A program made the position numbers and the translations under genes. From positions 1-25,283 of IMG/VR virus record IMGVR_UViG_3300030333_001876: a stretch of 25,283 nucleotides of DNA. One strand, written 5' to 3'. Every line of letters starts with the position of its first letter. The first letter of the stretch is position 1. The notes beneath the pieces were generated by a model. The model was not told the DNA's origin, did no database searches, and saw nothing but the letters and a program-made list of their open reading frames with translations. This document shows positions 7,670 through 22,700 of the stretch, piece by piece. The stretch is from a virus.

Positions 7670-8728
7670 ATGGCAACTACAGTAACATTAACAAAACCAA
7701 CTAACAACTGGCAGAGTTTTTGTGACTGGGTTACTAGTACCGACAACCGCATTTATGTAGGTTGGTTCGGTGTTCTAATGATCCCTGCACTACTAACAGC
7801 AGCAACTGCTTTTCTTATAGCTTTTGTTGCCGCTCCTCCAGTTGATATAGATGGTATTCGCGAACCCGTAGCTGGTTCTCTTCTATATGGAAACAACATC
7901 ATCTCAGGGGCAGTCGTCCCGTCAAGTAACGCCATCGGTATGCATTTCTACCCAATTTGGGAAGCTGCTACAATTGACGAATGGCTCTACAATGGAGGGA
8001 CGTATCAACTCGTCATCTTCCACTTCCTCATTGGCATCTGCGCTTACATGGGACGCCAATGGGAACTTAGTTATAGATTAGGCATGCGCCCGTGGATATG
8101 CGTAGCTTATTCAGCACCAGTGTCTGCAGCTTTTGCAGTCTTCCTTGTATATCCTTTTGGACAAGGGAGTTTCAGTGATGGTATGCCTCTTGGTATTTCA
8201 GGCACTTTTAATTTTATGTTTGTGTTTCAGGCAGAACATAATATTCTTATGCATCCTTTCCACATGCTCGGTGTTGCAGGGGTATTCGGCGGAGCTTTAT
8301 TCGCTGCTATGCACGGAAGTCTTGTTACTTCCTCGCTTATTGCAGAAACGACTGAAGAAGTATCACAAAATTATGGATATAAGTTCGGTCAAGAGGAAGA
8401 GACGTATAATATCGTTGCGGCTCATGGCTACTTTGGGAGACTTATATTCCAGTATGCTTCTTTTAATAATAGCCGTTCTCTTCATTTTTTCCTGGCTACT
8501 TGGCCCGTCGTTTGCATATGGATTACCGCTATGGGAGTTTCAACCATGGCGTTCAATCTTAACGGATTTAATTTCAACCAATCCGTGGTTGATGCAAATG
8601 GCCAAGTCGTTCCTACCTGGGCTGACGTCTTAAACAGAGCGAACTTAGGTATGGAAGTAATGCATGAAAGAAACGCTCACAATTTCCCGCTTGACTTAGC
8701 GGCGACAACGGAGAAACAATATGCCTAA
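7670..8728 (+). CDS. psbA: Photosystem II reaction-centre protein D1
   Basis: A full-length, intron-free D1 of 352 residues. Functional residues are all in register: TyrZ Y161, H190, chlorophyll ligand H198, iron ligands H215 and H272, QB-site S264, and manganese-cluster ligands D170, H332, E333, H337, D342 and A344. The phage copy replaces host D1 as it is photodamaged, keeping electron transport running in infection. Residue 130 is Gln (YMGRQWEL), as in cyanobacterial low-light-type D1. The host-typical Arg225 (SLVRETTE) is Ala here. After the processing site at A344 only 8 residues (ATTEKQYA) remain, about half the usual C-terminal extension. The 3' end overlaps an 18-codon ORF. GC content is higher than in neighbouring genes. 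Confidence 0.99.
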
Positions 8729-8777
8729 AGGCAAAGGTACTTACGGTACAAAGAAAGGGAGACCCCCTAAAAAATAA
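8721..8777 (+). CDS. 18-residue basic micropeptide overlapping the psbA 3' end
   Basis: [18 protein letters not shown]: 18 residues, seven of them Lys or Arg, ending with an AT-hook-like GRP core. The ATG at 8721 lies inside the last psbA codons in a different frame, and GGAGA (8710-8714) sits at ideal spacing as a Shine-Dalgarno sequence. Similar tiny MPKGKGTYG-type ORFs are, to my recollection, scattered in marine phage genomes without known function. A nucleic-acid-binding role is only suggested by charge. Below usual gene-calling limits, hence moderate confidence. Confidence 0.5.
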
Positions 8778-8786
8778 TACAAACGC

Positions 8787-8860
8787 CACGTCCGTTCATC
8801 CATTTTTATGGACGCATGAAAACCAAGGCATGGAACGGGGCTTTGGTAGATTAAGGTATT
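8787..8860 (+). promoter_or_regulatory. Candidate glutamine-II (Downstream-peptide motif) riboswitch
   Basis: Three mutually compatible helices are present. P1 pairs CCGTTC (8792-8797) with GAACGG (8833-8838). P2 is TCCAT (8799-8803) with ATGGA (8808-8812) around a TTTT loop. A pseudoknot pairs ACCAAGGC (8822-8829) with GCTTTGGT (8840-8847), eight pairs with one G-U, crossing P1. The primary sequence (CGTTCATCC, GGACGCATGAA, GGAACGGGG) matches what I know of the Downstream-peptide motif, a glutamine-binding RNA reported from marine Synechococcus, Prochlorococcus and a cyanophage upstream of tiny ORFs. The Shine-Dalgarno AAGG (8853-8856) of the following 19-codon ORF lies just 3' of the pseudoknot, which implies translational control. 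The identification is by eye, not by covariance model. Confidence 0.8.
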
Positions 8861-8863
8861 ACT

Positions 8864-8923
8864 ATGACTTTAACCTATCGTGGCGTGAAGTATGTAAAAA
8901 CTACTCACACAAATTCTAAATAA
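8864..8923 (+). CDS. 19-residue DUF4278-like micropeptide downstream of the riboswitch
   Basis: MTLTYRGVKYVKTTHTNSK, 19 residues. AAGG at 8853-8856 gives a well-spaced Shine-Dalgarno sequence. The opening LTYRGVKY resembles the start of cyanobacterial DUF4278 proteins (K/T-LTYRGVSY), so this may be a minimal version of that family. Downstream-peptide riboswitches are by definition followed by short peptide genes, so the placement supports the ORF. Function is unknown. It stops four bases before the outer-membrane protein ATG, making translational coupling plausible. Confidence 0.65.
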   Translation: MTLTYRGVKYVKTTHTNSK

Positions 8924-8927
8924 CTTA

Positions 8928-9290
8928 ATGAAAAAACTTGCTCTAGCCCTAGCGGCATCTATCGCTTCAGCTCCTGCAATTGCTGGACCTTATGTAAATG
9001 TAGAAACTAATGGTAACTACACTGGATCTGATTACACTTCCAGAGCTACTGATCTACATCTAGGTTTTGAGAACACACTAGGTTCTTTTGACTGGTATGC
9101 ACAAGGCGGTAAGACAATCAATGCCGCTGATGGTGTTGACTCTGAATCTAATTGGTCTGGTAAAGTAGGTGGTTCTGTAGCAGCTACTGATAAGCTAGGT
9201 ATCTATGGTGAAGTAGCTTTCTCAAATGTATTTGATGAAGATACTGATAACACATGGGGTACTAAGCTCGGGGCTAAGTATAGCTTCTAA
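8928..9290 (+). CDS. Small outer-membrane beta-barrel protein with signal peptide
   Basis: A 120-residue exported protein. Residues 1-19 are a classic Sec signal peptide: MKK, a hydrophobic LALALAASIAS core and a cleavage site APAIA before G20. The mature ~101 residues alternate polar and hydrophobic residues in several short strands (YVNVETNG, DLHLGFEN, FDWYAQGGK, GKVGGSVAA, LGIYGEVAFS, TKLGAKYSF) with Asp/Asn-rich turns. The terminal KLGAKYSF fits the C-terminal beta-signal of BAM substrates (polar-x-G-x-x-aromatic-x-hydrophobic) ending in Phe. It should therefore insert into the host outer membrane as a small barrel. Roles such as receptor masking, uptake or envelope weakening are guesses. 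There is no Shine-Dalgarno sequence before ATG 8928; translation may depend on the preceding peptide gene. It is not a recognisable T7 gene. Confidence 0.8.
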   Translation: MKKLALALAASIASAPAIAGPYVNVETNGNYTGSDYTSRATDLHLGFENTLGSFDWYAQGGKTINAADGVDSESNWSGKVGGSVAATDKLGIYGEVAFSNVFDEDTDNTWGTKLGAKYSF

Positions 9291-9305: not shown

Positions 9306-9347
9306 AATCACCGTGGAGTGTCTTAACGATACTCCTGGTGGTTTTCA
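9306..9347 (+). terminator. Terminator-like hairpin after the outer-membrane protein gene
   Basis: CACC-GT-GGAGT (9309-9319) pairs with ACTCC-T-GGTG (9331-9340), with a small internal bulge and an 11-base loop, extended by AAT/GTT at the base and followed by GTTTTCATTT. It lies 15 bases after the outer-membrane protein stop. The T tract is short, so it may be a weak terminator or a transcript-stabilising structure. Confidence 0.55.
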
Positions 9348-9367: not shown

Positions 9368-9427
9368 ATGACAGAACATCAGCATTGTAGATCCTGCCCA
9401 CCGTGCGAAACCACGGAAAACTATTAA
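9368..9427 (+). CDS. 19-residue cysteine-rich micropeptide (CxxCxxC)
   Basis: MTEHQHCRSCPPCETTENY, 19 residues. A strong Shine-Dalgarno sequence AGAAGG (9355-9360) lies 7 bases before ATG 9368, better than most genes in this window. The core has three cysteines spaced CxxCxxC (C7, C10, C13) preceded by two histidines (H4, H6), which could bind a metal ion or an iron-sulfur cluster or be redox-active. I know no family for it. It is flanked by two RNA hairpins. It is too short for normal gene calling, so translation needs proof. Confidence 0.5.
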   Translation: MTEHQHCRSCPPCETTENY

Positions 9428-9428
9428 C

Positions 9429-9455
9429 GTCTTACGTAGCGGAACTACGTGAGGT
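9429..9455 (+). other. Stable RNA hairpin upstream of the putative decoration gene
   Basis: CTTACGTAG (9431-9439) pairs with CTACGTGAG (9445-9453), 9 bp with one G-T pair and a CGGAA loop; two further pairs extend the base to 9429/9455. A T-rich leader without a Shine-Dalgarno sequence (9459-9480) follows up to the next ATG. It could be an attenuator, an RNase processing site or a 5'-end stabiliser of the following mRNA. Confidence 0.5.
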
Positions 9456-9481: not shown

Positions 9482-10036
9482 ATGCCTTTTACTTCTAATG
9501 CAACAGCTGGTACTGTAGTTTATACTCCAGAAGGTTTCTATTCCTCTGGTGGTATTCTTGATGCTAATAGTGCTTCCGTTACTAACAGTGCAACTGTTGT
9601 TACTGCAGGTACAGGATTACAAATTCCTCTTGGTGGATACGAAAGAGTCATAGGTCAGTATAGAATCTGGTATGATACAGATGCTGATAATGATTTCCGC
9701 TTCTGCATTGATACTACAGATGCTTCTGGTACAGCCTTTAACTCAAACATTAACTATGCTGTTCAAGCAGTAGTTGGTGGTGATGCTCTTGGTTCTGAAA
9801 CAGCAACTAATGCTCCATCTCTATCAGCAAGTGCTACCGTAACTAACGGTCAAGGTACTGAACTTCTATTAGTTGATGATGGTGATGAAGATCATTACGC
9901 CACTATTAGCTTTAAAATCGAAAATCAAACCGCTACTAAAGGTAAGGTAGATTTTCTATTTGCACAAGGAACAGCTACAGGTTCAACAGCAACCTTTATA
10001 TATGCTGGTTCCCATGTTATGTGGAAGAAGTACTAA
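9482..10036 (+). CDS. Putative capsid decoration/fibre (beta-rich virion) protein
   Basis: A 184-residue protein rich in Thr, Ser, Ala, Gly and Asp with alternating beta-strand patterns (IPLGGYERVIGQYRIWYDT, FRFCIDTT, YATISFKIENQT, KVDFLFAQGTATG, ATFIYAGSHVMWKKY). There is no signal peptide or membrane helix. It is the gene immediately before the major capsid gene and has its own terminator-like hairpin, so high expression and virion incorporation are likely. By analogy with the cyanophage Syn5, which has knob-like and horn surface proteins on its head, a capsid surface protein is the best guess; no sequence homology is claimed. Confidence 0.6.
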   Translation: MPFTSNATAGTVVYTPEGFYSSGGILDANSASVTNSATVVTAGTGLQIPLGGYERVIGQYRIWYDTDADNDFRFCIDTTDASGTAFNSNINYAVQAVVGGDALGSETATNAPSLSASATVTNGQGTELLLVDDGDEDHYATISFKIENQTATKGKVDFLFAQGTATGSTATFIYAGSHVMWKKY

Positions 10037-19722: not shown

Positions 19723-22700
19723 ATGGCAAATCCTTACGAGGAGAGTTCATCACTTTTAAATGAAGGTGTACAAGAACCTGAACAAGAAGATTCTAATATA
19801 GAGTCTTCTCCACTATTAAATACAGAAGATACTACTAAGGTAGCAGAGTTACCACCACCAAGAGTGGAAGTACCCAGTTCACTTGCAGGTGGAGGTACAA
19901 ATGAATCCGAATCAAATGAAACATCTGGAACATCTTCTGATGTATCCGAACCATCTGATTCAAATAAATTTGCTGAGTTAAGATCTATTAAACGTGATAA
20001 TACTCTCAGCAGAGAAGAGAAAGAGGCTGCAATTGAAGCATGGTCAATGAAACACCACGGTGTGGATTGGCAAACATGGAAGCGACAAGAACAGGAAAAT
20101 AATGGTATAGCAAATTATTTAACAAATAAAAGTGTAATATACCGTCCTGAACAAATGTCAGCTATAGCAGCTGGTACTGTAGATTTCTTTCAACGTGATA
20201 TACCAAATTTATTCCTTCAAGGTAAGCATAAAATACCTTCTTTTATACCTAAATTTGAATCTGAAGGTGCTCAGTCTTTAAGAGATGTATCATCACTTAT
20301 TGTACCTTTTTTCATATTAAAAGGAAAAGGAATGCAAGCTGGTGCTAAAGTACATAGTGCTAAAGTAGCTCCAGTTTGGTTACAAAGATTAGGTAACAAT
20401 CCAGCATTTGCAAGATTTTCTAAAGTTGGTCTAGATTTAGGCGTAGGCGGAGCTGTTGATTATACAGCTCAAACTAGCCAAGACGATGATACTTTGGCCA
20501 CTAGTTGGAAACGAGGTAAATGGTGGGGTCATAACTTTATACCAGAATCATGGACATCAGATAATTTATCTCCAGATGGTAAACGAAGAGCTAATGTACT
20601 AGAAGGTATAAGACTTGGTTTTTATACAGGTGTAGCCGAAGGTGCATTTAAATTAGTACGAGCTGGTAAAAGTATTAAAAAAACTACTAAATATTTAGCT
20701 GCAAATTCTCAAAATCAAGAAAAATTAAATAAATATGTTGACGATCCACTTGATACACAAATCTTTGATGATGATCCAGTAACTGATAATTTACTTAGAC
20801 AAGAAGCTAAATATGATAGAGAAGTACAAAAACTAACTGCTTATCATAATGTTCTTACAGAGAACCCTACCGGACCAACAGTAGGTATACATAAAATAAA
20901 AAATCAATCAGAAGCAGGTATTATCCCGCGTAGTGGTGACGGTATCATAGGAGCAGCTAAAGATCAAACTTTAATATCAAAAAATCTAGGTACGGTTAAT
21001 GGTAGATTAAGTAATTTATTAAGTGACGCTGCTAGAAAGTTTGGTTTAAATTCAGACGCTGTTACTGAACGTGCAATTTTAAAAAACTTAAGAAAGAAAT
21101 TATTAGACATCGGTGAATATGATGTTAACTTACCAAATGGTAAAAGATTAAGTTGGAAAGAAATTGATCGTGAAGGTAAAATATTAGCTGAAGTTATTGC
21201 CGATCCAACTCTACCTAAAAATGAGTTAGTTAAAATATTAAATAATTTCAAAGAAACTGTTAATGGTGTAAAGAAATTAAATCCAGTAGGATATAAGGCT
21301 GTCTCTAAAGCTATGATAAGGTATTTAGATGATTGGGCTGATATCAATATGCATAAAGCTAGAGCATATTTACTTACATCAGAAGCTGGTCAAATATCAG
21401 ATTTATCAGAAGGTATGAGATATATTGATGGATCTGAAGGTATAACTAGAGCAAATGAACAGTTATTAGATCGTTTAGAATTATTTGAACTTGAAACTTC
21501 TATATCAGATTTTGAATGGAAAAGTAGAAATAAAGCCTTTGAATCTTTTAAACAAGCTATAGAAAGTGGGGATCAAAAATCTTTACTTAGAAAACTTGAT
21601 TTATTAAATGAGAATTATAATGAAAAGCTTACTGATATAATAAGTAAATCTAAAGAATTCAGAGCAACCTTAGCTGATATACAAGTAAATAACCCTGAAT
21701 TTGCTAAGTCTTTAAGACTTGCTTATGAGTTATCTGATGGAAATGTACAGACTATTAAAGGCATTAATAGAACAATTGAAAATATGCTTGGTACATATTC
21801 CAAAGCTGTAGTAGATGGTGCTCCAGAAATACCTTCTATATTTAATAGAGCAGTGATGACTAATATCTTCAACTCTATGCTATCAGCTATAGGAACTCCT
21901 ATAAGGGCTTTACAAGGTAACTTCGGTGGATTTATATCAGAACCAGTTAGTGTGCTGTATGGAGCCTTAAGAGAGGGTGATACAATTGCAATGCGTAGAG
22001 CAGCTCATATGTATTTTGGGATTGCTGATACATTTCAATTAGCACTACCTTATGCAGGTCGTATATTTAGAAAGGCATCTATGAATCCTGATGAAGTTCA
22101 ACACTTATTCCGTAATGATTTAGCTATACAAAAAGCAAGGAATATGGAATTTGCTCAGGAGTTTGCTAGAGCTGCATCAGAAAAAGGTGAGTACGGTGCT
22201 CAAACAATATTAAATCTAGTAGAAGAATTAGAAGCATTAGGTAGAAACCCTGTATTAAGGTTTGGTCCAAATGCTATGACAGGTTTAGATGGTTTAACAG
22301 AAGCTACACAAAAAATCGCTCAAGATAAAGGTCAAGCTTTTGATGAATTATTAAAACGATTCCCTGATGGAAACTGGACTAAAGAAGACTTCAGAAAAAC
22401 TTTCAAAAAAATATGGGATAAGAATTGGACAGAAGACGGTCTTATACATCAGAAATCAGTAGAGTATGCAAAACGTGAGATAGCTCTTAACTTAGACACA
22501 CCATTAGTTAGAAATTTAAATCCTATACTAAAACGTTTCCCAGTTTTAAGAAGTATATTCTGGTTCCCTACAACTCAAATGAATGCACTTGATATGTTTG
22601 GGAAATATGGTAATTTTAGTAGAGTTAAAATAGGTACTGATTTTACTGGTGAATATGCAGAATTATTAGGTCCATACGGTCAGAAAAAGATAACTGATTT

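Follow-up and report, generated by a model that had tools for sequence, protein, structure and literature searches.

A Glutamine-II riboswitch, a micro-ORF and a Phage_OMP gene in a T7-like cyanophage and its relatives

In the literature, the type-2 glutamine riboswitch is described as apparently confined to marine picocyanobacteria (PMC6316151), and 99 of the 101 Prochlorococcus genomes that we sampled carry the switch. A structure paper (PMC6698751) and a review (PMC6316151) report that expression from a Prochlorococcus type-2 element is raised when glutamine binds, probably at the level of translation. The ORFs found behind the host switch (n = 44) contain two or three YRG-like motifs in 33–78 codons; the corresponding DUF4278 small proteins (PF14105) are related to the N-terminus of the glutamine synthetase inactivating factor IF17. 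Phage-borne glutamine aptamers are likewise known from T4-like cyanophages and from the OM43 phage Melnitz, the latter with tmRNA (PMC9964418, PMC9004378). The RNAs of Melnitz and S-CREM1 are of the glnA type, whereas the element analyzed here is of type 2 and was found in T7-like podoviruses, together with a micro-ORF and a helix that we call P0. The membrane-protein gene of this locus also has described relatives, in PF24653, a cyanophage outer-membrane-like beta-barrel family (phrog_417, gp222, T4-GC 241). In the sampled cyanomyoviruses these genes stand alone, with their own Shine-Dalgarno (SD) sequence, near pstS, nrdC or glycosyltransferases, whereas the gene studied here lies behind the micro-ORF.

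The DNA analyzed (the window) is a stretch of 25,283 nt contained in a 25.9-kb IMG/VR virus record. Based on its portal, scaffold, hli, psbA, capsid and tail tube genes and on its nearest named relatives, the Tangaroavirus and Cheungvirus podoviruses of Prochlorococcus, the window was assigned to a T7-like cyanophage. The stretch under study is located between psbA (7670–8728) and the capsid gene (10204), and its parts described below, from the ORF at 8721 to the hairpin at 9315–9335, are on the plus strand. We regard the arrangement as the glutamine-II cassette of the host in a form modified by podoviruses: the peptide is shorter, a helix specific to the viruses is present and, in one lineage, the gene for a membrane protein lies directly behind.

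The riboswitch aptamer and its genomic setting

The Glutamine-II (Downstream-peptide) riboswitch aptamer RF01704 was matched at positions 8790–8847 with 56 bits against an Rfam gathering score of 33 (E = 2.8e-11), and the glutamine riboswitch that the initial annotation had placed upstream of the peptide ORF was thereby borne out. The pseudoknot pairs CGUUC/GAACG were present and invariant in all 56 phage sequences that were aligned, and the stems P1 and P2 covaried, with changes on both sides. The aptamer, the pseudoknot and P1/P2 are the same as those of the host Glutamine-II switch, and a short ORF with the YRG motif follows in both (PMC2864571, PMC6316151). The phage copies differ from the host copies in that they lie close behind an upstream stop codon and carry P0; moreover, among the sampled host copies, any second ORF of 40 aa or longer lay 76 nt or more away.

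Binding of L-glutamine and raised expression have been established for host elements only (PMC6698751, PMC6316151), and by analogy the phage element would be an ON switch with glutamine. Aptamer-dependent exposure of the SD sequence was rejected as the expression platform, given that the average exposure obtained by folding was 0.37 with the aptamer and 0.34 without it; no clear SD-exposure switch was seen, which weighs against this reading of the element.

An 18-aa lysine-rich ORF (8721–8777) overlaps the psbA stop, and its own stop lies only 15 nt 5′ of the CGTTCA of the aptamer, so that the switch appears to be inside an operon. Across the phage loci the stop of the upstream gene was very often found 9–10 nt 5′ of CGTTCA, whereas no upstream stop was found within 60 nt of this motif in the hosts; the phage switch therefore sits inside operons. 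A dedicated sigma-70 promoter 5′ of the switch was rejected, as matches were no more frequent than in shuffled sequences. The DNA of the C-terminal end of the 8721–8777 ORF reappears just 5′ of the riboswitch in three other contigs (L047, L054 and L067).

The micro-ORF and helix P0

The micro-ORF (8864–8923) encodes a peptide of 19 amino acid residues, MTLTYRGVKYVKTTHTNSK, with a single YRGxxY motif that corresponds to half of the host DUF4278 unit. Over 87 distinct core YRG-ORF sequences, the coding frame had a pN/pS of 0.43, compared with 1.45 and 1.49 for the two alternative frames, and the micro-ORF is thus a real coding unit under selection. Its match to DUF4278 reached 20.2 bits, under the Pfam cut-off of 25.3, and covered residues 1–15 of the 57-residue model; the phage peptide, which stands behind the same switch, resembles the N-terminal part of the model but is without the second YRG repeat of the host proteins. 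Phage YRG ORFs have one motif in 13–21 codons, or are about 35–40 codons long with an N-terminal extension. The latter form a second viral class with the same aptamer (MSxVELQARxxEQ..., 35–40 aa; L017, L025, L037, L054, L060, L126, L133, L140 and others), and they can also precede Phage_OMP. An annotation of the micro-ORF was absent from the named phage records inspected.

An SD-like AAGG (8853–8856) is located 7 nt 5′ of the peptide ATG. The initial annotation had called this SD sequence good; it is indeed present, but its strength is moderate, with a duplex energy of −4.0 kcal/mol against the anti-SD, and in related contigs 22% of positions picked at random also reach −4 kcal/mol. A hairpin between the peptide SD and codons 2–4, seen in the fold of the window, was dropped because the alignment showed no conservation of it.

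In the same fold, the bases just 5′ of the aptamer were first seen to pair with the YRG codons. The 5′ strand of this helix, P0 (ACGCCACG, 8783–8790), lies directly 5′ of the aptamer core, and the 3′ strand (CGTGGCGT, 8879–8886) is formed by the Arg-Gly-Val codons of the micro-ORF. P0 is a phage-specific long-range helix joining the 5′ flank of the aptamer to the coding region. It appears to be new, although PMC2864571 points to a regulatory hint in the conserved peptide and may already mention such a pairing. When its register was counted by anchoring over 131 distinct viral loci, 76% of cells were paired, compared with 29–54% for slid registers and 71.8 ± 0.5% when the strands were swapped among loci. 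In the 56-sequence alignment, the eight pairs were formed in 88.4% of cells (25–57% when slid), 30 cells were changed on both sides (12.1 ± 3.2 in shuffles) and the covariation was 0.251 (0.181 ± 0.009 in shuffles); two further rows of this output, the number of pairs changed on both sides and further pair types, were not above the shuffles. RNAalifold predicted six of the eight pairs without a supplied structure. When the P0 columns were left out of tree building, three variable pairs showed eight same-branch co-changes where about 2.7 were expected, seven of them from pair to pair, and in three close sister pairs (distance 0.04–0.14) a C-G was swapped for a U-A between the flank and the Val/Ile codon. 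P0 is thus a covarying helix.

Its distribution is viral. None of 44 host riboswitches had six or more of the eight P0 pairs (the maximum was five), and the 44 host ORFs mostly use AGA at the Arg codon. Some loci, chiefly ones with long ORFs, have a weak P0 or none: at least six pairs were found in 64 of 93 short-ORF loci and in 15 of 38 with long ORFs. The Synechococcus phage KBS-P-1A is among the loci without P0. A DNA inverted repeat serving as an operator is an unlikely explanation, given that G-U wobble pairs, present in many loci, would break such a repeat.

The Phage_OMP gene and conservation of the layout

The gene at 8928–9290 encodes a protein of 120 amino acid residues that was identified as Phage_OMP (PF24653, phrog_417, “gp222”). 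The Pfam match was 149.7 bits against a cut-off of 27 (E = 5.8e-44) and extended over positions 3–122 of the 122 in the model, that is, over the full length. The N-terminus is signal-peptide-like, and in the AlphaFold2 model (mean pLDDT 82) a signal-like helix is followed by six long strands. Its best structural match was to a designed barrel (Z 9.3), and no solved structure was matched by Foldseek at E ≤ 0.001. A relative was present in 469 phage records. One of 151 Prochlorococcus genomes had a Phage_OMP copy over the cut-off, and no host donor was found in this sample. That lone copy (L330, G089:C121:7564-7899; 49 bits) perhaps lies on a phage contig or is a cellular copy. In P-SSP10 (L196), the Phage_OMP frame is without an in-frame signal-peptide start and the only start left is 54 nt after the micro-ORF stop; the missing start suggests a frameshift or a sequencing error.

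As the initial annotation had described, the ATG at 8928 follows the stop of the 8864–8923 ORF by four bases (CTTA), and this layout recurs widely. All three parts (switch, YRG ORF and Phage_OMP) were found together in 45 distinct loci, where −4 to +17 nt separate the peptide stop from the ATG of the membrane protein; this set was enriched through searches with the membrane protein. With such recurrence, the layout is not due to chance. A scan of viral contigs with the aptamer pattern gave at least 120 loci. Among the matches listed from this aptamer-chosen scan there were 69 short YRG ORFs, which were followed by the capsid gene in 33 cases (at 149–188 nt), by Phage_OMP in 13 (at −4 to +17 nt), by other ORFs in 15 (13 of them at −4, −1 or 0, in contact with the stop or overlapping it) and by a gene like that at 9482 in two; no following ORF was found for the remaining six. 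Among named phages, the cassette precedes the capsid gene in P-SSP7, P-SSP2 and P-GSP1, and Phage_OMP in P-SSP6, NATL2A-133, NATL1A-7, P-SSP10 and P-SCSP-R27W. Podovirus Phage_OMP genes were also found without the switch, after hli (overlapping by 1 nt) or after other ORFs (overlapping by 4 nt). The proposed unit of switch, peptide and membrane protein holds as an order conserved in many cyanopodoviruses. A unit dedicated to the membrane protein is less plausible, since in the aptamer-chosen scan the cassette was found before the capsid gene more frequently than before Phage_OMP.

The type-2 switch thus occurs in T7-like cyanophages that include the model phage P-SSP7, where both the element and the micro-ORF are unannotated. 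There the riboswitch (AY939843.2, about 20522–20580; L326) has 10 of 10 P0 pairs and a 17-aa micro-ORF, MKVTFVYRGVAYTRVIG, and the cassette lies between PSSP7_028 and the capsid gene. In a further group of loci (L009, L024, L099, L104; L021, L031, L042, L048, L076, L086, L108, L146), the stop of the micro-ORF is overlapped, by 4 or 1 nt, by small ORFs of 41–57 aa, whose geometry is more favorable to coupling than that of Phage_OMP.

Translational coupling and the role of P0

The initial annotation had reasoned that the membrane-protein ATG has no SD sequence, and that a switch controlling the peptide gene would also gate the membrane protein. The first statement was correct, with an anti-SD energy of +2.2 kcal/mol before 8928. 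The capsid gene of the window is also without an SD sequence (+2.3 kcal/mol), and an SD energy of −4 kcal/mol is reached by 18% of the genes of NATL2A-133; in that phage, this strength was found for 25% of tightly packed and 14% of far genes, which is not the expected direction of difference. According to a Prochlorococcus study, these cells do not depend on SD sequences (PMC5607370). Since most genes of these phages have no SD sequence, its absence at 8928 fails as an argument for coupling. Folding further gave a mean of 0.76 unpaired for the start at 8928, the most open of 15 window starts compared, so that no masking structure demands coupling. Of the features expected for a coupled pair, a conserved stop/start spacing within re-initiation range was found, whereas a downstream start masked by structure was not. 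The conserved abutment speaks for the second statement but is not enough to establish gating, given that SD-less genes are usual and the start is open. Translational coupling of Phage_OMP to the micro-ORF is possible from the arrangement of the genes, and the chance of some re-initiation contribution is put at somewhat under one half.

If coupling were strict, the Phage_OMP start would be reached only by ribosomes that had translated the micro-ORF, and glutamine would gate the membrane protein. Consistent with this, the gap stays at −4 to +17 nt in the 45 loci, where no OMP start has an SD sequence of −4 kcal/mol or better; podovirus OMP genes abut or overlap several unrelated upstream ORFs, usually on or just after their stop; and the stop of the peptide is overlapped, by 4 or 1 nt, by other ORFs that follow it. 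In the cyanomyoviruses, each of the seven copies that have a leader of their own carries an SD sequence of −4 to −7.3 kcal/mol, but this contrast may reflect lineage, because some podovirus copies with a leader of 22–63 nt (L148, L153, L093 and L037) are also without one. Because the start is open, SD-less genes are usual and NATL2A-133 often packs its genes closely (28 of them are separated by −10 to 20 nt), strict coupling was judged distinctly unlikely. The switch might instead govern the micro-ORF alone, with Phage_OMP starting independently of it and of glutamine. Such a passenger gene would fit the open, A-rich start, the OMP genes found without a switch after hli or other genes, and the cassettes without OMP in P-SSP7, P-SSP2, P-GSP1 and most loci listed by the aptamer-chosen scan. 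A passenger needs no particular gap, however, and the gap stays in re-initiation range even though the OMPs diverge and the micro-ORFs are of two kinds, which makes independence rather doubtful.

The role of P0 also has two candidate explanations. P0 may itself be the expression platform, a translation latch opened or closed by the ligand or by ribosomes. It covaries, links the 5′ flank of the aptamer to the ORF and is favored by about 10 kcal/mol in the fold of the window, and ribosomes terminating at the upstream stop, often 9–10 nt before CGTTCA, would cover its 5′ strand. On the other hand, P0 and the aptamer share no bases, folding yields P0 both in the presence (0.73) and in the absence (0.63) of the aptamer, and its distance from the start codon varies from about +16 to +80; a latch is accordingly considered somewhat unlikely. 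As the phage switch sits inside operons, an insulating closing helix is the simplest role, and P0 most likely shields the switch from the rest of the polycistronic message.

On balance, we consider it fairly probable that the stretch is a phage Glutamine-II cassette within an operon, closed by P0, in which glutamine modulates rather than gates Phage_OMP. It would represent the phage form of the cassette known from marine picocyanobacteria, carried in an operon between the psbA and capsid genes. As in the Prochlorococcus element, plentiful glutamine would close the pseudoknot of the aptamer and ribosomes would start at the micro-ORF. The 8 nt 5′ of the aptamer and the Arg-Gly-Val codons would enclose the aptamer, the SD sequence and the start codon in one domain, and P0 would most likely shut this domain off from the remaining message. 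Phage_OMP would be made from the same message. Ribosomes terminating on the micro-ORF would probably add to its translation by re-initiating 4 nt downstream, but the open, A-rich start is expected to function unaided as well; glutamine would for this reason modulate and not gate the gene. More tentatively, and with low confidence, cyanopodoviruses may have rebuilt the host switch such that the pairing of the flank with the YRG codons makes coding sequence a part of the regulatory RNA; peptide translation, the binding of glutamine and the output of the following gene (for the membrane protein, a small protein or the capsid) would then be read out together in infection. If functional, the cassette would allow a lytic phage to sense the nitrogen state of its host via RNA and to set capsid-region or surface genes accordingly. 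In P0, codons that are under selection for the protein pair with the switch as well, which would make this RNA element within coding sequence amenable to a clean test by synonymous mutation.

A terminator-like hairpin with a T run (9315–9335) is located 25 nt 3′ of the Phage_OMP stop. The idea that the unit ends in a conserved terminator behind Phage_OMP was rejected: the terminator is clear in the window and in L126, but a hairpin of 6 kcal/mol or more with a T run was found in just 12 of the 40 riboswitch-linked loci checked. Directly 3′ of the hairpin in the window there is a 19-aa ORF (9368–9427; MTEHQHCRSCPPCETTENY) with an SD-like GAAGG, and beyond it a second terminator-like hairpin at 9429–9455.
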